Positions 15,277-24,675 of a stretch of DNA of 64,000 nucleotides are shown here, piece after piece. The DNA comes from Pectinatus brassicae (GTDB taxonomy: Bacteria > Bacillota > Negativicutes > Selenomonadales > Selenomonadaceae): assembly GCF_014201835.1 (NCBI RefSeq), contig NZ_JACHFH010000006.1, positions 1 through 64,000 on the forward strand. Reading direction: 5' to 3'. Each line of letters begins with the position of its first letter. Within the stretch, counting starts at the first letter, position 1. The notes beneath the pieces were generated by a model. That model had not been told where the DNA came from, searched no databases, and saw only the letters and a list, made by a program, of their open reading frames with translations. The position numbers were made by a program, and so were the translations under genes.

Positions 15277-16407
15277 TCAGCCGCCAAACATAGCCAGCAT
15301 TGTACCGGCTGCAACTGCTGTTCCTATAACCCCAGCCACATTTGGTCCCATTGCATGCATCAGTAAATAATTGCCTGGCTTTGCTTTTTGTCCTTCAATC
15401 TGGGATACACGAGCTGCCATCGGCACTGCTGATACGCCAGCAGAACCAATAAGCGGATTTATTTTTCCACCGGATAAATAACACATTACTTTACCTAACA
15501 GTACGCCTGCTGCCGTACCTACAATAAATGCTACCAAACCTAACACGATTATTTTTATTGTGGCAAGTTTTAAGAAAGCATCTCCCGACATCGTAAGTCC
15601 CGTTCCTAATGCCAGGAAAATAGTTACCGTATTGATAAGGGCATTTTGCGCCGTATCAGAAAGTCTGTCCGTAACGCATGATTCCCTAAATAGATTCCCC
15701 AGCATCAGCATGCCGATAAGAGAAGAAATTGCCGGCAATAATAAACTTATAGCTATGGTAGTAACAATTGGAAATACAATTTTTTCGAATTTACTTACAT
15801 GACGCATCTGACCCATCTGTATTTCACGTTCTTTTTTTGTTGTAAGCAAGCGCATAACCGGCGGCTGAATAAGTGGTACCAATGACATATAGGAATATGC
15901 CGCTACAGCTATGGCACCGAGAATTTCCGGAGCCAGCTTGGTTGCAAGATATATAGCGGTAGGACCATCGGCACCACCGATAATACCAATAGCCGCAGCC
16001 TGGGAACTAGTAAAGCCCATAGCCATTGCTCCATATAAAGCAACAAATACACCAAATTGTGCCGCTGCTCCTAATAACAATGTATTGGGATTAGCAATAA
16101 GCGGTCCAAAGTCGGTCATTGCCCCAACCCCCATAAAAATCAACGGCGGGAAAATTTCCATATGAATCCCCATGCTTATGGCATTCATTACGCCTTCATC
16201 AAAGCCATTATTAGGAATATTAGCTAATATACAACCAAAAGCAATTGGGGTCAATAACAATGGTTCAAACCCCTTACCAATTGCTAAGTATAATAATACT
16301 GCACCAACTATCATCATTATAATATTATTCATATTCATGACAAAATAGCCGCTATCCGACCATACTGCATGAATAGCAACAGCAAATGCGCCGAAAAATC
16401 CATCCAT
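15277..16407 (-). CDS. mmdB: sodium-pumping decarboxylase beta subunit (OadB/MmdB/GcdB family)
   Basis: Integral membrane subunit that couples decarboxylation of a carboxybiotin carrier to sodium export. Family landmarks: [24 protein letters not shown]-type N-terminus, the [10 protein letters not shown] loop with the functional Asp, and a C-terminal repeat with [17 protein letters not shown] and [12 protein letters not shown]. Start choice: ATG at 16407 (MDGFFGAF) has GGAAGGA about eight bases upstream; the ATG at 16416 overlaps that site and a TTG at 16431 is less likely. Which acid is used (oxaloacetate, methylmalonyl-CoA or glutaconyl-CoA) cannot be told from this subunit. The alpha carboxyltransferase and biotin carrier genes are not in the cluster. 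Confidence 0.92.
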
Positions 16408-16453
16408 ACTACTCATTCCTTCCACACTCAATTTATATTATTTCTACTTTTAT

Positions 16454-16774
16454 TTACGCCTTTTTAGTAATAGAACGTATTTTTACATCCTTATAGCCAT
16501 AAGCCATAATTGCCGTTGTTATAACTGCTACCAAGGTCTTATTTTCCATATCAAGCGGTGCTGCTGCCGGTACTGCAACGGGCACGGGGCTTGCCGGTGC
16601 CTGAGCTGGTTTTACTACTGTTGCCGTTCCTTCTGCCGCCGTTTTTTTCGATTCATAAACAATATCGTTGATATATTTTATAACCCGTATTACCAGGCTT
16701 AATCCAAATAAAACAGCAAAAACAATTGCCATATTTATTATCATTATTAATAACGGATCTTGTGTTCCATGCAT
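16454..16774 (-). CDS. OadG/MmdD-like small subunit of the sodium-pumping decarboxylase
   Basis: One membrane segment near the N-terminus (IMIINMAIVFAVLFGLSLVI), a charged stretch, an Ala/Pro-rich linker, and a C-terminal segment (TLVAVITTAIMAYGYKDVKIRSI) typical of gamma/delta subunits that anchor the peripheral decarboxylase to the beta subunit. I place the start at ATG 16774 because GGGAG lies eight bases upstream; a GTG three codons earlier (16783) is possible. It sits between the SHMT-like gene and the beta subunit and is probably in the same operon. Confidence 0.85.
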   Translation of the reverse strand: MHGTQDPLLIMIINMAIVFAVLFGLSLVIRVIKYINDIVYESKKTAAEGTATVVKPAQAPASPVPVAVPAAAPLDMENKTLVAVITTAIMAYGYKDVKIRSITKKA

Positions 16775-16789
16775 AAGTGACACTCCCTT

Positions 16790-18130
16790 TTATTTTCTCA
16801 TAAAGCCCAGTATTTTCTTTAATACGGCTTTTTTACGTTCAGCCGCTAGTTCATGTGATACAGTTAAATTACCACCGCTATATACAGGACTTAATACATC
16901 TTTAGTCGTAACCCATTCATCAGAAAATAACGGATACTGCATTGCTATATCTGTAACATCCTGCTTTATTTCCTCTAGTTTTTCCGGATTATTCTTATTT
17001 TTAAGTACCATTGCTATTATATGACCTAGTGTATAAAATTCATCTTCCTTAAGGCCACGTGTTGTCAAAAGTAGACTGGACAATCGCAAAATATCAAAGG
17101 ATGTGCTTTCATCAGCCGTTGTCAAGACTGTTGGCTTAGTTATAACTCCAGCCAAACGTAAAGCTGCTCCCGCCTCATTGCAGGTCATTTTTAACTTGGT
17201 CAGGTTAAGTAATACCAAATTTGTATCAGTACCACCGCATAATATATCCATGCCTTCTTCTTCAAGTCCCTTTTGCAATGCTCTGGCATTCAATACAACC
17301 TGATGACAGTATTCGTTGTATTTAGGGGTATTAGCTTCCTTAAAGGCAATAGCCAATGCGCCTAAAATATTTCTTTTCAGGGCAAAATGACCTGTTGTAA
17401 TAACTGTTTCATCAACTTGCGCTGCCAATTTTTTTGTGCAAAGAATTACGCAGCCTTGCGGTCCTTGTAAGGCATCATGAGTTGAAAAAGTAACTACATC
17501 TGCATAAGGAACTGGTGAAGGAATTTCTTTAGCGGCAACAAGTCCAACATTTTGGCAGATATCAAACCACATATAAGCACCAACTGATTTAGCAATCTCA
17601 CCAAGACGTTTATAATCAATGATCCTAGGATAATTGACCGGTGAAAAAATTATAAGACGTGGTTTATGCTCTTTAGCTAATTTTTCAACCTCATCAAGAT
17701 TTATTTTCTGTTCCTTAGGATTGATACTAAAATTAACAAAGTTAAACTGCAGGCTTTCACTGTTGCAATGGTCTTTTTTACGGCAATCCAAGGATAAAAC
17801 CGTATCACCTTTTTTTAATAAGCTGTAGAATACAACACGTGAAGCTGCTGCTATATTACTGGTGCGAATACTGGCATGCTCGCTGCCAAATAATTTATTT
17901 ACACGCTCAACAGTCATTGCTTCCAATCCTGTCGGTGTTTTTTCATCATGATGTGTCATTAAAGCATTGCTTAAAATACTGCCCTCCATATAGGCACTGA
18001 CCGGTGAAGTATAATTTTCCTCAGGCATAAAAGACAGGGCATATTTTTGTTTTTGCAGCTCATCCTGAAAATAATTATATAATTCTGGATCAAAAGCCGC
18101 TATCGAACTGATAATTTTTTCTGTATCCAT
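16790..18130 (-). CDS. serine hydroxymethyltransferase-like protein lacking the PLP lysine
   Basis: Clear full-length homologue of GlyA (446 residues): PEENYTSP near 36-43, LFGSEH, the EHKPRLIIF/YPRIIDYKRLGEIA segment, the PLP-ring aspartate region (Asp190), PSPVPYADVV, and CGGTDTNLVLLNL. The lysine that forms the PLP Schiff base in THK(T/A)LRGP is replaced: the sequence reads STHDALQGPQG with Asp219, confirmed as GAT. The DMAH histidine region is also changed (DICQNVG) and the glycine-rich YPGxRYYGG motif is lost. It therefore cannot form the usual internal aldimine. It lies seven bases ahead of the delta-like pump subunit, so a role linked to that complex is suggested but unproven. Confidence 0.85.
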   Translation of the reverse strand: MDTEKIISSIAAFDPELYNYFQDELQKQKYALSFMPEENYTSPVSAYMEGSILSNALMTHHDEKTPTGLEAMTVERVNKLFGSEHASIRTSNIAAASRVVFYSLLKKGDTVLSLDCRKKDHCNSESLQFNFVNFSINPKEQKINLDEVEKLAKEHKPRLIIFSPVNYPRIIDYKRLGEIAKSVGAYMWFDICQNVGLVAAKEIPSPVPYADVVTFSTHDALQGPQGCVILCTKKLAAQVDETVITTGHFALKRNILGALAIAFKEANTPKYNEYCHQVVLNARALQKGLEEEGMDILCGGTDTNLVLLNLTKLKMTCNEAGAALRLAGVITKPTVLTTADESTSFDILRLSSLLLTTRGLKEDEFYTLGHIIAMVLKNKNNPEKLEEIKQDVTDIAMQYPLFSDEWVTTKDVLSPVYSGGNLTVSHELAAERKKAVLKKILGFMRK

Positions 18131-18176: not shown

Positions 18177-19437
18177 TCAAGGTGTAAACGGCCAGAAGAA
18201 AGGAATTACAACTGAACATACAATCAATGATATAATTACCAGTGGTATACCAACCTTCACATAGTCCATAAATTTAAAGCGCCCCGGCCCCAAAATCAAG
18301 GTATTTGGTGGTGTTGCTACCGGTGTTGTAAAAGCACATGAAGCTGCTATACCAACTGCCATAAGTACTGGGAATGGCGATACATGCACGGTTTGGGCAA
18401 TGGAAATACCAATAGGTGCCAAAAGCGCCGCTGAGGCAGTATTGGACATAAACTGTGTAAGTCCACATGATAAAATAAACATGGCAACAACTATTATTAC
18501 TGGTGAAGGACTACTTCCCATAAGACTTACAACACCATCAGCTATCATTTTACCAGCACCGGTTTTATCCATAGCACCAGCTAGTGACAGCATACCGGCA
18601 AACAAGAAGATTGTAACCCAGTCAATACCCAAATATGCTTGTTTTTCAGTTAAGCAGCCGGTAAGTACACAAGCCAACGCTCCAATAATAGCTATACTTT
18701 GCATTGGTATACCAACGGTTTTATGAAAACCCATACCTAAAACTACAATTATTAAAATTCCTGCACAGATCATCATTTTCTTAGGATCTTTTGGTTTATC
18801 AGAAACTTCTGTCGGATCAATAGCTTCAGCCATATTAGACGGACATAACTTACTGCCAATCGTAAGCATGTATATTATTGCTACAATGGCTAGCGGAATA
18901 CCATGCATATTCAAAAAAACCAAAGGGCCGAAATCCTGCTGCCTGTAATGCCCCACTCATCAAAATATTAGGCGGAGTCCCAATCATTGTGATAGTACCA
19001 CCGACATTGGCAGCTACTGCTAATGCCATCAATTGCTTGGATACAGATACACGAGCTGCTGCACAAATTTGAATAACAACCGGCATCAAGCAAGCTACTG
19101 TCGCTGTATTAGATGATATTGCCGATAATAAAACCGTAATTATCATCAAATACGCCATTAAACGTTTTTCACTGGAGCCAGCGCTTCGTACTACTGTCAT
19201 CCCAATTTTTTGGGCTAACCCAGTTTGAAACATTGCCGCACCGATAACAAACATACCAGCGAATAATACAACTGTTGAATTGGAAAGACCGGAAAAAACC
19301 TGCTTTGGTGTAAGCACTCCTAAAAGACCTAATGCCACCGATGACCCCATAGCTGTTACTGCTAATGGAATCAATTCTGTAGCAAAAAAGAATGCTGCCA
19401 CCCCTAGAACACATAATGTTAAAATTGCGGGATCCAT
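18177..19437 (-). pseudogene. DASS/SLC13-type anion symporter, frameshifted
   Basis: Two overlapping frames together make one complete carrier of about 420 residues. The first (19437 to 18850) carries the N-terminal half with SSNTATVACLMPV and TMIGTPPNI; the second (to 18177) carries the rest with MSNTASAALLAPIG and TTPVATPPNTLIL. These paired SNT motifs define the divalent anion:sodium symporter family (dicarboxylate, citrate or sulfate). The frame changes between about 18896 and 18920, next to a run of seven T (complement of 18913-18919). Either one extra T or a short deletion a few codons later explains it. It may be a true inactivation or a sequencing error. Confidence 0.85.
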
Positions 19438-19760: not shown

Positions 19761-20438
19761 TTAAAGCTTATTAAGCGTTTTATTGCCATAAATTGCCTGC
19801 CAGTCAGCCGCAAAATCATCTACTGCTTTTTGTATTGATGGCACTGCAAATGCGGCTAATAAAATATCAGGAGCAATTGTTGCCGTCTGTGCTCCGGCGC
19901 CAAATGCTGTATTAACCTGAGCAATATTTTTAAAGCTGGCTGCCAAAATCTGTGTTCCATATCCATATACAGCTATCATTTCAGCAAAGGATGCTATAGT
20001 AGCTGCCGCATCAATATCAAGATTTTCCATACGATTAAAATATGGTGCTATATAATCCGCACCAGCTTCCATGGCCATAAATCCCTGGGTCTTAGTATAA
20101 ATAGCGGTAGCTGTAATATTAACATTTTCTTTTTTCAGTGCCATTATTGCCTTAAGTCCATTGGGTGTAACGGGTATTTTTATAAATACATCTTTATCGA
20201 TTTTTTGCAAAATCGTATGTGCTTCATCCATAATACCTGCATAATCTTGTGCCAATATCTGTACATGCAGACTCTTATCAGCACCAATAATACTGCGGAT
20301 TTTTTTTAAGTGGTTAAAAAAATCAATTTTTCCCTCTTTTTTTATAATACTGGGATTGCTTGTAATACCAGCAAGCGGCAATAAATCATTGCATTTTTCA
20401 ATCATTTTCAAATTAGCAGTATCAATTAAATATCTCAT
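19761..20438 (-). CDS. fsa: transaldolase-like fructose-6-phosphate aldolase (FSA family)
   Basis: Class I aldolase of 225 residues, the size of FsaA/MipB and the short TalC group. The Schiff-base lysine is in [11 protein letters not shown] near residue 87, and [31 protein letters not shown] matches the family core. FSA enzymes split or form ketose 6-phosphates and ketose analogues using dihydroxyacetone or hydroxyacetone as donor. It is downstream of a glycyl radical enzyme and its activase, as fsaA is near ybiW in E. coli. This suggests that it cleaves the sugar-derived product of the radical enzyme rather than acting in the pentose phosphate pathway. That link is inferred from context. Confidence 0.9.
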   Translation of the reverse strand: [225 protein letters not shown]

Positions 20439-20522
20439 TATATTTCTCCCTTAAGTTTATTTTTCTATTAAGCTATTATAACAAAATCCCACACTATATT
20501 ACCGCTTAAAAAACTTCCATAA

Positions 20523-21428
20523 TCAGCGGAAATTTTTAATGCCAGCTTCTTTTATGATGCTGTAAAAAGAATTCATTTCCGCTTGTGTATATAACGGCTT
20601 ATCTTCAACAAAGCAATAATCGTAAGCAACATGCTGATATTTGGCCCGCGCCAGCGGATTATAATTTAATAATTCATAATTTACATTTTTATTCCATTTA
20701 GCAAGCGTCTCGGCAATAAGTGACAAATTTTCTTTTGTCGCTGTATATTTGGGAATAAGCGGCGTTCTTATAATAACCTTATTACTATACTTTGACTGCA
20801 ATACTTTTTTTATATTGTTTTTTATTAGAATATTATCCATGTTTGTATATTTTTTATGCTTACCATTATCATATATCTTAAAATCTACAAACAATGTATC
20901 GATAAATGGCAAAGCCTGCTCTATTTTTTCCCAGACCGCAAAAAATGATGTTTCCACAGCTGTATAAATACCCGCCAACTGTAATTTTTCCAAAAATTTT
21001 ATTATAAAATCAGCCTGAAAAAAAGGTTCTCCCCCCGATAATGTTACACCACCACCATATTTAAAAAATGGCATATCCTTTTTCACTATTGTCATTAATT
21101 CATCACTGCTATAATATTTGCTGTCCATACGCAAAGCTCCACTGGGACAAATATATTCATATTCAGCCGCATCTATCACTTTGCTGGTATCAATAATAAT
21201 TTTATTATTTTCCATTGTGACAGCATTATCTTTAAGCTTAATGCAATAATTACATAAAATACATTTTGCTGGAAAATGCACAAGCCTGGCATTCTTCTCA
21301 ATTCCTTCGGGATTTTGACACCATATACAGTGCAATGGACATCCCTTAAAAAAAATCGTTGTTCTTATACCAGCTCCATCATGCATAGAAAAACGCCTGA
21401 TATCAAAGATCAGTGCCCTGTTCTTCAT
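20523..21428 (-). CDS. pflC: glycyl radical enzyme activating protein
   Basis: Radical SAM activase that installs the glycyl radical on the enzyme encoded just upstream. The SAM cluster motif is GCPLHCIWC near residues 30-38 and GGGVTLSGGEPFFQ follows. A ferredoxin-like insert is present between them (CILCNYC and later YICPSG) as in the larger PflC/YbiY class, but it has fewer cysteines than the usual two-cluster pattern, so one auxiliary cluster may be lost. Its start overlaps the radical enzyme stop by four bases, which indicates translational coupling. Confidence 0.92.
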   Translation of the reverse strand: MKNRALIFDIRRFSMHDGAGIRTTIFFKGCPLHCIWCQNPEGIEKNARLVHFPAKCILCNYCIKLKDNAVTMENNKIIIDTSKVIDAAEYEYICPSGALRMDSKYYSSDELMTIVKKDMPFFKYGGGVTLSGGEPFFQADFIIKFLEKLQLAGIYTAVETSFFAVWEKIEQALPFIDTLFVDFKIYDNGKHKKYTNMDNILIKNNIKKVLQSKYSNKVIIRTPLIPKYTATKENLSLIAETLAKWNKNVNYELLNYNPLARAKYQHVAYDYCFVEDKPLYTQAEMNSFYSIIKEAGIKNFR

Positions 21429-23782
21429 ACGGCATCATACTGGGTTCTGGCGATTATTTCATCCTGCAATTTACCATCTAATTCAGTAAAATAAGCCGTA
21501 TAGCCAGCAACTCTTACAGTAAGACTGCGATATTTTTCTGGATTTTTTTTAGCTTCCTGAAGATCTTCCTTATGAAGAACATTAAACTGAATATGAGGAA
21601 TCTTTAAATCGACAAAAGTGCGTAAAAACATCGCAAATTTTTTAATTCCCTGCTCAGTTGCAAAAAATTCCGGCAGAAATTTCATATTTAATAAGCCGCC
21701 GTTTGACGTCAAATTATTATCGAGCCGCCCTACCGACTGTAAAACAGCTGTCGGCCCAGCTGCATCACGCCCATATACAGGTGACATTCCCCCATCAGCT
21801 AATGGTTGCTCTGCTAATCGTCCATCCGGCGTTGCCCCAACATTTTCCCCCATTGGTACATGTGCAGAAACTGTATACATACCCGTATGATAAAGTCCGC
21901 CGCGATGATTTTTATAATGAGTAAGTTTTTCTCTAAAATATTGTGCCCATTTAACCGCGATATTATCAACCCATTTAACATCATTACCATATTTAGCTAC
22001 TTTATTTTCAACCATAGCTTTTATTACTGGATATCCTTGGAAATTTTTTTGCAATGCTGTTAACATTTCTGTACCAGTGATACGTTTTTCTTTATAAATT
22101 AATTGATAAAGTACTGCCATACTATCAGCAATATTAGCTGCCTGAATTATTTGTATACCCGATAAATTATAATGGGCTCCGCCAGCTGTAACATCAAGTC
22201 CTTTTTCCATACAATCATCGATCACCGCTGACAAAAACGGCGATGGCAGTAAATCCATATGTCCCTGCTCAACCTCGGCACAGGCTTTTATCATTTTTCC
22301 CATAAAATAATCGATCTGCCCGGCAAAAGCATTTTCTAATTCTTCAAATGAATCATATGTGTCAAGCCCCCCTATATCCAGCCCCATCTGTCTACCGGTA
22401 AGCAGACACTTACCATGATTCATTGCCAATTCCAATGCTTTATTTAAATTAAACATGGCAGCATCACTCCACCCAAGATTATTTCCCTGCGTAGTAAGCT
22501 CTACACAGCCCACAATGGCATAATCCAAAGCATCTTTAGGCGCAATCTGCAAAGACTCTATCATTGTATCAACTACAGCTTCATCATTAAAAAACTGCGG
22601 CATACCACTGCCTTTAGCTACAACAGCTATTGATTTTTCCAATAAGTTTTGTGATGTATTTTTATTTAAGCGTACCGATAAATTCGGCTGCGGCAACCCC
22701 AAGTCTTCCTGTGCCTGCAAAAACATATATGATAAATCATTTTCGGCAGCATTGCCATTTTCATCGAGTCCGCCAATCGCTATATTAAACCCAATGGGAA
22801 ATCCAGCAAAATATTTAGCGCTATTGGTATTGCGCATATAGACAATTTGGTTGAACTTAAGCCATAAGCATTCTATTATTGTTAAAGCCTTTTCTTTATC
22901 TAAGCTCCCCTTGTCAATATCCCGCTTATAAAATAGATATAAATATCTATCCATACGCCCCGGTGAAAAAGATGAGGCATTAGATTCCATCTGCAATATG
23001 ACAAATAAAAACCACAGTGACTGAACCGCCTGATGAAAACTTTCAGGCGCATTATTGGCAATAAATCCACAAATATCAGCCATCTCCAGTAAATTTTTCT
23101 TATACTGCGTATTTTCAGCAGCCATTTGCTTTAATAATTCACTATATCTATGCATAAATATTTGCGCACCATCCATAGTTATAATGATTGCTTTATAAAA
23201 ATTTTGCTGCTTATTGGTAAGATTTTCACTTTGCAATTTCTGCTGTGCCTGCTGCTTTATTTGTTCTGGTCCCATTTGCAGCCATAAATCACAATCCGGG
23301 CAAATATGCCCCTGTGAATGGTCAGTTTGGTTTATTTTGGCTACCTTACTTATAGCCGAAAACTCTTCGCCAAATTTATCTTTTAAGATATCTTCGAGTG
23401 ATTTTCCCTGCCAATATGGTTTTATCACTTCCCGATATGTTTTTATATCTGCTCCTTTAACATTAAACTTATCCTGTGAACGAGTTGGCAGCGTTTCCAG
23501 TTCTTTATCTATCCACAAGCCACCGCTTTCCGGTGACACAACACCATAACGTACACCTTTAGTACGATTGCCGACAATGAGTTCTTCCGGCTCAATGGCT
23601 ATTTCCATTTCCTGCAAAGCAGCCTTCAACGCCAGTGCTCTTTTTATTATTACAGGTTTTTCCTCATTTTCCTGATAAATACGTGTCGTTATAAGTGCCT
23701 GCTCTATCGACATATACCGCTTTTGCCGCAGCATTCTTTCTTTTAATAAATTTATTCTTTTCTGCCTTGATAAGCTTTCCAT
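21425..23782 (-). CDS. pflD: glycyl radical enzyme (PflD/YbiW class)
   Basis: 785-residue member of the pyruvate formate-lyase superfamily. The thiyl cysteine lies in VGCVELT (Cys426), with Glu428 as in the dehydratase/lyase branch rather than the CC pair of true pyruvate formate-lyase. The glycyl radical motif is RVAGYTAYF with Gly760. A CPDCDLW pair near 161-164 is present in the N-terminal region. It is not CutC, HpdB or a benzylsuccinate synthase by its neighbours. With an adjacent FSA aldolase it fits the PflD/YbiW group, for which cleavage of 1,5-anhydroglucitol 6-phosphate has been reported as I recall. The substrate here is inferred, not shown. Confidence 0.88.
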   Translation of the reverse strand: MESLSRQKRINLLKERMLRQKRYMSIEQALITTRIYQENEEKPVIIKRALALKAALQEMEIAIEPEELIVGNRTKGVRYGVVSPESGGLWIDKELETLPTRSQDKFNVKGADIKTYREVIKPYWQGKSLEDILKDKFGEEFSAISKVAKINQTDHSQGHICPDCDLWLQMGPEQIKQQAQQKLQSENLTNKQQNFYKAIIITMDGAQIFMHRYSELLKQMAAENTQYKKNLLEMADICGFIANNAPESFHQAVQSLWFLFVILQMESNASSFSPGRMDRYLYLFYKRDIDKGSLDKEKALTIIECLWLKFNQIVYMRNTNSAKYFAGFPIGFNIAIGGLDENGNAAENDLSYMFLQAQEDLGLPQPNLSVRLNKNTSQNLLEKSIAVVAKGSGMPQFFNDEAVVDTMIESLQIAPKDALDYAIVGCVELTTQGNNLGWSDAAMFNLNKALELAMNHGKCLLTGRQMGLDIGGLDTYDSFEELENAFAGQIDYFMGKMIKACAEVEQGHMDLLPSPFLSAVIDDCMEKGLDVTAGGAHYNLSGIQIIQAANIADSMAVLYQLIYKEKRITGTEMLTALQKNFQGYPVIKAMVENKVAKYGNDVKWVDNIAVKWAQYFREKLTHYKNHRGGLYHTGMYTVSAHVPMGENVGATPDGRLAEQPLADGGMSPVYGRDAAGPTAVLQSVGRLDNNLTSNGGLLNMKFLPEFFATEQGIKKFAMFLRTFVDLKIPHIQFNVLHKEDLQEAKKNPEKYRSLTVRVAGYTAYFTELDGKLQDEIIARTQYDAV

Positions 23783-23800
23783 GTAATCCCCTCCCTTTTA

Positions 23801-23839
23801 TTATTGTTTAATATTATTGTTTAATATTATTGTATATTG
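23801..23839. repeat. 13-base tandem repeat in the radical enzyme promoter
   Basis: TTATTGTTTAATA at 23801-23813 and again at 23814-23826, then a diverged TTATTGTATATTG at 23827-23839 and a partial fourth copy. It lies just upstream of the glycyl radical enzyme start and may be the operator of the DeoR regulator encoded behind it. Confidence 0.55.
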
Positions 23840-23875
23840 TTTTTTATTGTTTTTCAATGAATCAGGAAAAAAATT

Positions 23876-23909
23876 AAAGACCTTTTAATATCACTACTAA
23901 AAAGTCTTT
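23876..23909 (-). terminator. terminator after the DeoR gene
   Basis: Imperfect stem AAAGACCTTTTA / TAAAAAGTCTTT with an outgoing T-rich tract (complement of 23864-23873). It ends the regulator transcript before the radical enzyme promoter. Confidence 0.65.
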
Positions 23910-23913
23910 TTTC

Positions 23914-24675
23914 TTATATTACTTCAATTTGATATTCTTGTAATTTTTTATATAACTGCTCTGATAATTCTTTTTCTGTAATAATAGCATTAAATTCAGT
24001 AATATCAGCATAACGAAAATTACCACTATGAGAAAACTTGGCTGTTTCTGCCATCATATATACCTTACTGGCTGCCTGCAGCGCTGTTTTTTTCGTATAA
24101 CCATCTTCGGCTTTATAAGTATAAACTGCATTCGCCGCAATATCTATTCCCACAGTCCCAATAAACGCACTGTCAAAATGAAACTTTTTAAGTAAGTTAT
24201 TAGTAATAGTACCAACAAAACCGTCACTGCCGGAATTAAGCACACCGCCAATAAATATAAGTTCAATATTGGGGACTGATGCTGCTATATTCATTATTGC
24301 AATCATATTGGTTATAACAGTAATCTTCATACCAGCATCAGCCAATATTTTTATAAGCTCAATATTAGCCGTAGATATATCAAGAAATATAACATCACCT
24401 GTCTGAACAAATTTTTTAGCCTTTTGTGCTATGATTTTTTTTTCAGCAATATTTATATTTTTACGCTGCTGCACATTTAATAAATGAGTGTTTTTTCTTA
24501 CCAAAACTGCCCCGCCATATACACGTTTAAGCAAATTTTTTTTCTCTAAAACCGCCAAATCCTTACGGATACAATCATCAGTTACCGAGAATTTTTCGCT
24601 TAGCTCTTTTACCAAAACTTTGGCATTTTCCTGCAGTACTTGTATTATTTTTTCCTGCCGCTCCTGTACAAACAT
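23914..24675 (-). CDS. DeoR-family transcriptional regulator
   Basis: Sugar-phosphate-responsive repressor of 253 residues. The N-terminal helix-turn-helix is at about 5-58 (VKELSEKFSVTDDCIRKDLAVLEKKNLLKRVYGGAV with the typical RVYGGA end) and the C-terminal DeoR sensor domain has the GDVIFLDIS and TNMIAIMNIA patterns. It stands directly upstream of the glycyl radical enzyme, on the same strand but separated by a terminator, so it probably controls that operon in response to a phosphorylated sugar. The 13-base tandem repeats at 23801 are the likely operator. Confidence 0.9.
   Translation of the reverse strand: MFVQERQEKIIQVLQENAKVLVKELSEKFSVTDDCIRKDLAVLEKKNLLKRVYGGAVLVRKNTHLLNVQQRKNINIAEKKIIAQKAKKFVQTGDVIFLDISTANIELIKILADAGMKITVITNMIAIMNIAASVPNIELIFIGGVLNSGSDGFVGTITNNLLKKFHFDSAFIGTVGIDIAANAVYTYKAEDGYTKKTALQAASKVYMMAETAKFSHSGNFRYADITEFNAIITEKELSEQLYKKLQEYQIEVI

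Follow-up and report, generated by a model that had tools for sequence, protein, structure and literature searches.

A predicted pseudoenzyme family with the serine hydroxymethyltransferase fold, encoded next to organic-anion transporters in Selenomonadaceae

Why should a bacterium keep an intact gene for a protein with the fold of serine hydroxymethyltransferase (SHMT, GlyA) from which the Schiff-base lysine has disappeared? The question is raised by a gene of Pectinatus brassicae, whose product is termed SHL here and which lies in a stretch of 64,000 nucleotides (positions 1 to 64,000 of contig NZ_JACHFH010000006.1), hereafter the window. The first-pass annotation of this DNA had described a full-length SHMT-like protein with an aspartate in place of the lysine, and had proposed that it might be a regulator, a folate or PLP binder, or a scaffold for a neighboring sodium pump. 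The positions of interest in the gene are as follows.

16790-18130, minus strand: SHL gene, 446 residues, a predicted pseudoenzyme with the SHMT fold (open reading frame, Pfam PF00464, AlphaFold2 model, fold and family searches, purifying selection)
17474-17476, minus strand: codon GAT for Asp219, aligned with K226, the lysine that forms the Schiff base in B. stearothermophilus SHMT (sequence, mapping, column counts)
17561-17563, minus strand: Asp190, which corresponds to D197, the aspartate at the PLP ring, present in 69/69 SHL (mapping, column counts)
17084-17086, minus strand: Arg349, which corresponds to R357, the arginine for the substrate carboxylate, present in 69/69 SHL (mapping, column counts)
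17777-17782, minus strand: Arg117-Lys118, an invariant pair specific to SHL and near the ancestral cofactor site in sequence (69/69 column counts)
16793-16912, minus strand: C-terminal tail of 40 residues after the invariant Trp406, a flexible linker plus a basic predicted helix, DASS-type (tail comparison, low-pLDDT stretch, helix 420-444 in the model)

The frame runs from ATG to stop with zero internal stops. The Pfam family PF00464 matches residues 11-372 with 214 bits (E 3e-63), and the NCBIfam GlyA model NF000586 gives 271.7 bits, which is under its curated cut-off of 335. The AlphaFold2 model, for which 71 relatives served as input, has a mean pLDDT of 87.5, and the last 36 residues alone are poorly defined; SHMT crystal structures head the list of its structural matches (Foldseek E 6e-39), and VIA gives a Z of 48.7 with 4ot8 and an rmsd of 2.1 Å across 387 residues. 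Pfam and the model comparison agree on a full-length SHMT fold, so this part of the first-pass annotation stands, as does the retention of Asp190. A second SHMT elsewhere in the genome is canonical and is 33% identical to SHL.

The roles of the named active-site residues of SHMT are well established, and these residues were mapped onto SHL with the B. stearothermophilus enzyme as the numbering reference. The replacement of the lysine was borne out by the codon itself and proved to be general: across the 69 aligned members, the Schiff-base column holds lysine in 0/69, with 57 Asp, 6 Gly, 3 gaps, and one each of Glu, Ala, and Asn. Since Asp occurs in 57 of the 69, Asp219 is not strictly needed; it is the loss of lysine that is universal. 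Also altered or lost are the tyrosine loop with Y51/E53/Y60/Y61, which is 7 residues shorter in the window protein, the S93-G94-A95 phosphate loop (the PLP phosphate-site residues S93, G94, the G257 region, and Y51 are all gone), and H200, which has become Gln193, while H122 corresponds to His121. The folate residues N341 and F351 are replaced by T334 and T343, neither of which is conserved, and this makes the proposed folate binder unlikely. Of the old site, the aspartate and the arginine listed above (D190 and R349) persist in all 69.

There are 51 positions at which a single residue is found in at least 95% of canonical SHMTs and in fewer than one tenth of SHL proteins. The canonical active-site columns, taken as a set, show no excess of conservation in SHL over randomly chosen columns (P 0.61), which argues that the old site has been dismantled and that a different set of residues has been fixed around Asp190 and Arg349. 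Strictly conserved in SHL and missing in canonical SHMT are Arg117, Lys118, Ser163, Pro164, Ser351, and Trp406; nearly invariant are Trp188, Ser33, Pro36, Arg89, Ser97, Gly247, and His248. The first five of the strictly conserved residues, and Trp188, are close to the old catalytic motifs in sequence. The Arg117-Lys118 pair is missing from both canonical and sister SHMTs, and Lys118, being invariant and near the old cofactor site in sequence, is a possible replacement lysine. To judge from the clade-wide loss of essential catalytic residues, SHL is probably a pseudoenzyme; it is a homologue of SHMT but, without the Schiff-base lysine and the main residues for substrate and folate, it does not belong among the SHMT enzymes in an annotation.

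SHL is not an oddity of the window genome: its clade numbers at least 94 distinct proteins. A scan of named genomes found its hosts in the Selenomonadaceae (Selenomonas, Centipeda, Mitsuokella, and uncultured rumen lineages) and in the Succinivibrionaceae of the Pseudomonadota. In 189 genomes of the Selenomonadaceae, many full-length relatives were found at 40-81% identity, and a genome that has them usually carries one or two in addition to its canonical SHMT. A profile search of 380 genomes of the class gave at least 525 bits for SHL versus at most 377 bits for canonical SHMT, and, among those 380, SHL was confined to the window's own family. The set used below consists of the 94 distinct genes left once duplicates were removed. 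In a quick maximum-likelihood tree of these 94 with 24 lysine-bearing proteins, SHL is monophyletic with a support of 100. Its sister, with a support of 99, consists of a few proteins of other Negativicutes that have the lysine (L181-L185), a placement less sure than the SHL clade because, as the program warned, long branches meet at that join. The sister proteins have in common with SHL the motifs SPL..LEGS and IPSPVP.ADVV and a C-terminal EW; they differ from it in keeping the lysine and most catalytic residues, with F/V at Y60/Y61. Two of them, from one genome, adjoin an SDF-type sodium:dicarboxylate symporter (L181, 4910-6190, at 112 nt, and L182, 4818-6098), and another member of the group sits in a folate gene cluster. 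The lysine-bearing paralogues L181, L182, and L183 may be aldolases other than SHMT. The surroundings of L182 also hold aspartase and malic enzyme genes.

At four loci in the Succinivibrionaceae (L113, L123, L129, and L135), SHL is followed by genes for a tRNA-dihydrouridine synthase and an aldo/keto reductase, and a DASS transporter gene lies upstream only sometimes; this pattern suggests that SHL was passed horizontally between these bacteria and the Selenomonadaceae. Carriage of SHL on plasmids was considered and set aside, the matches listed in a tblastn search against plasmids being at most 34% identical and like canonical SHMT. As to a phage origin, SHL matches an SHMT-like family of PHROG at 226 bits, a score similar to that of canonical SHMT.

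Purifying selection maintains SHL. Between the window and the congener G046, dN is 0.114 and dS is about 2, which is near saturation, with a ratio of 0.057, like the 0.042 of the neighboring MmdB gene; in 56 SHL pairs with dS between 0.1 and 1.5, the median dN/dS is 0.0925 and the maximum 0.15. The earlier impression of an intact frame kept by selection is thereby upheld. Lysine was not found at the equivalent locus of any relative, and the rates are not those of a pseudogene, the two points on which that impression depended.

If the gene is kept, what is it kept for? A clue comes from the gene next door, which is separated from SHL in the window by 46 nt.

18177-19437, minus strand: DASS/CitMHS (SLC13-type) sodium-coupled anion transporter, the partner gene, in two overlapping frames (Pfam/NCBIfam, alignment to a relative, partner statistics)

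With partners called by tblastn of the DNA upstream of SHL, the start of SHL lies at most 450 nt behind a same-strand transporter gene in 76 of the 94 loci, the transporter being of the DASS/CitMHS type in 46, GntP-like in 26, and GPH in 4. The other 18 include four that come second in an SHL tandem behind DASS, two with the transporter farther off, about 11 with no such transporter in the DNA read (some of them in Succinivibrionaceae), and one more with too little DNA. Around canonical SHMT genes of the same family, such a transporter was found in 0/10 loci within some 7-8 kb on each side (one of these loci starts 3.5 kb from a contig edge). A close DASS orthologue occurs in 34 Selenomonadaceae genomes, 33 of which have SHL; the congeners G043-G045 have neither. 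In G024 and G033, one SHL gene has lost the adjacency, and an extra DASS copy is found elsewhere in the genome. G039 lacks SHL and has a DASS with 81% identity to the DASS of its congener G038, which means that the transporter can do without SHL.

Placed on the SHL tree, the labels DASS, GntP, and GPH require two changes, the minimum possible, so each new type of partner was taken up no more than once and the adjacency was kept. DASS looks like the ancestral partner from this tree, a GntP-like transporter having probably been acquired once and a GPH transporter once inside the GntP-like clade. In the S. ruminantium-type loci L051 (5707-7212), L096, and L105, SHL has the gene for a GPH sugar symporter on one side and that for a dCache methyl-accepting chemotaxis protein on the other, and this chemoreceptor neighbor hints at ligand sensing in that clade.

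The C-terminus differs according to the partner. In the DASS type, about 40 residues follow Trp406, with a linker and then a basic amphipathic stretch (in the window, SHELAAERKKAVLKKILGFMRK); in the GntP and GPH types, 22-24 residues follow it and end like DLMMKAMIYG (DSDLMMKAMIYG). A conserved end on a variable linker resembles a docking peptide and may be one, although tail type is confounded with ancestry. Oral Selenomonas and Centipeda have tandem SHL pairs behind one DASS gene (L032, L033, L034, and L097). In each of these tandems, the first copy is long-tailed and the second has a tail of 6 residues past Trp406; a heterodimer of the long-tailed and short-tailed copies is possible.

In the window itself, a deletion of 5 bp between 18902 and 18903 divides the DASS gene into two frames, 18850-19437 and 18177-18956, and this frameshift may be why the first-pass annotation overlooked it. 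The DASS gene of G046 (L052, 8104-9367) has independently lost 2 bp near codon 22, and SHL is intact in both genomes. On either side of these lesions, the dN/dS of DASS between the two is 0.05-0.08, so the lesions are either recent or sequencing errors. Were the deletion real, SHL in the window strain might now be without a working partner. Breakage of DASS as a general or phase-variable trait was rejected, since the breaks in G034 are assembly gaps (runs of N) and the true indels, in the window genome (G000) and G046, are in different places. DASS is also split in the MAG locus L085.

On the other side of SHL lie the genes of the sodium pump.

16454-16783, minus strand: OadG/MmdD-like small subunit of a sodium-pump decarboxylase, a lineage-specific neighbor (Pfam/NCBIfam, locus comparison)
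15277-16431, minus strand: OadB/MmdB beta subunit of a sodium-translocating decarboxylase, a lineage-specific neighbor (Pfam/NCBIfam, locus comparison)

The gap of 6 nt between SHL and the OadG-like gene, and the same order in G046, could mean that SHL is a scaffold or regulator of this decarboxylase. The operon is indeed tight in the window, but the conserved neighbor is DASS on the far side. The expectation that homologues would sit beside oadG and mmdB failed: the two genes follow SHL in 2/94 loci, those of the window and G046 only, and the co-occurrence to be expected of a pump subunit is not found. Pump genes were not found in the DASS-SHL locus of G038, and G039 has both the pump and DASS without SHL. 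A role for SHL in the pump complex is therefore very improbable and, as an explanation of the family, is largely refuted by genome context. At the G039 locus (L202, 4382-7433), the order is DASS-OadG-MmdB with SHL missing between, apparently a clean loss of SHL. The MmdB of the window is the sole copy found in its genome, and genes for MeaB and methylmalonyl-CoA mutase lie inside the window near the pump, so the organism probably makes propionate from succinate; the pump would thus be a metabolically sensible neighbor of SHL and not its general partner. On the same strand, at 19761-24675, are genes for a PFL2-family glycyl radical enzyme, the activase of that enzyme, a protein similar to fructose-6-phosphate aldolase, and a regulator of the DeoR type, a set that resembles E. 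coli pflD/pflC/fsaB. The glycyl radical enzyme scores under every enzyme-specific cut-off.

The reading that we prefer, with a probability of about 0.45, is that SHL is a soluble, non-catalytic accessory (regulatory) subunit of an organic-anion transporter. Of the roles first proposed, that of a regulator is still the best, with the transporter as its target. SHL would stay folded as an SHMT-like dimer in which the old cofactor site has been rebuilt with the invariant Asp190, Arg349, Arg117, Lys118, Ser163, and Ser351. This pocket would bind a small anion, which may be the carboxylate being transported or some metabolite that reflects it, and the tail on its flexible linker would dock on the transporter. 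Ligand binding might then alter the docking such that uptake is throttled or enabled, as by SbtB on SbtA. In Pectinatus, the circuit would have methylmalonyl-CoA mutase and a sodium-pumping decarboxylase as its neighbors, as would fit a fermenter of succinate to propionate. Several observations count against such a subunit: the DASS of G039 without SHL, the different DASS frameshifts in the window and G046 next to an intact SHL, and the 11 or so SHL genes without a nearby transporter. Moreover, the adjacency is equally expected if SHL metabolizes the imported compound, and tail type and partner type are both confounded with phylogeny. Slightly less probable is the larger proposal that secondary transporters have recruited an entire metabolic enzyme fold, that of SHMT, as a subunit devoted to sensing a ligand, and that this subunit has moved from DASS to GntP-like transporters with a matching change of docking tail; transporters in bacteria of the rumen, gut, and mouth would then be controlled by a mechanism of a new type.

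Pairs of genes for a transporter and a catabolic enzyme are common, and the main rival to a subunit is an enzyme that acts on the imported compound by a chemistry needing no Schiff-base lysine, either independently of PLP or with relocated residues such as Lys118. The invariant or nearly invariant polar residues R89, S97, R117, K118, S163, D190, R349, and S351 exceed what a pure scaffold needs, and the lysine-bearing sister proteins of one organism adjoin a dicarboxylate (SDF) symporter. Nevertheless, most cofactor-site columns drift at an average rate, the PLP phosphate-site residues are gone, and there is no obvious single substrate because the partner families differ; we regard new chemistry as unlikely, if well short of negligible. 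A less probable explanation is that SHL controls the expression of the transporter through nucleic acid or another regulator and not through the transporter itself. SHMT proteins can act non-enzymatically, as human SHMT2 does (PMC7692841), and a LacI regulator or chemoreceptor gene neighbors SHL in the GPH clade. Against this, the SHL model has no added DNA-binding domain, and the gene is downstream of the transporter and not divergent from it.

The active sites of SHMT are shared between the subunits of a dimer, and the genomes with SHL also carry a canonical SHMT gene; SHL could be an inactive regulatory partner of that enzyme, as proposed for the Plasmodium falciparum paralogue PfSHMTm, for which an interaction between isoforms has been suggested (PMC3014972). 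Yet SHL is linked to transporters rather than to glyA, canonical loci are without these transporters, SHL is only 33% identical to its own canonical SHMT, and the Y51/E53/Y60/Y61 loop is shortened, all of which leave this partnership with little probability. Finally, the lost catalytic residues, the broken DASS in the window, and the absence of SHL from G043-G045 are what one would see if SHL were a decaying paralogue without function. This is scarcely credible with the dN/dS values given above and 94 distinct members with intact frames; decay is refuted for the family, and a very recent loss of function in the window strain alone is possible.

Control of carboxylate transport by SHL would constitute a control point for the uptake or release of organic acids in bacteria that form propionate or succinate. 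Annotation pipelines may count SHL genes as second copies of glyA, because they match the SHMT Pfam family, and metabolic models of Selenomonas from rumen and mouth would be distorted as a result. SHL may also be a clean natural case of the conversion of a conserved dimeric-fold enzyme into a partner protein, with the lysine-bearing sister clade still available for comparison. A description of the family was not found in the full-text literature on SHMT in Selenomonas, on SHMT pseudoenzymes, and on inactive bacterial paralogues, a search that covered a minority of subscription papers; SHL is apparently undescribed.

How does SHL compare with known systems? With GlyA (PF00464; 4n0w, 2vi8/1kkj), it shares the fold over the whole length, the ring aspartate, the carboxylate arginine, and about 33% identity; it differs in having no Schiff-base lysine, a shortened tyrosine loop, and rewritten phosphate, folate, and His200 sites. 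A precedent for an SHMT fold without catalysis is PfSHMTm, an inactive paralogue without most active-site residues and, like SHL, an SHMT pseudoenzyme; unlike SHL, it is a eukaryotic organelle protein, is 18% identical to the active isoform (PMC3014972), and has no link to a transporter. For the action of such a fold on a partner, there is the human SHMT2 dimer, which inhibits the BRISC enzyme and senses PLP: in SHMT2-alpha/BRISC (PDB 6r8f), the apo dimer inhibits its partner and this is sensed through the cofactor pocket, although SHMT2-alpha is human, is still an enzyme with PLP bound, and has a deubiquitinase as its partner (PMC7692841). For the link to a transporter, SbtB-SbtA and GlnK-AmtB are cases in which a soluble ligand sensor is encoded with the transporter and docks by a flexible element (PMC8352866). 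The likeness of SHL to these pairs consists of the proposed logic and the adjacency to a transporter (76/94 within 450 nt); SbtB and GlnK have the trimeric PII fold, a nucleotide ligand, and no homology to SHL, whose model is SHMT-like throughout. Pseudoenzymes with the SHMT fold have precedents, as have sensors associated with transporters; it is their combination, across unrelated transporter families, that appears to be new.
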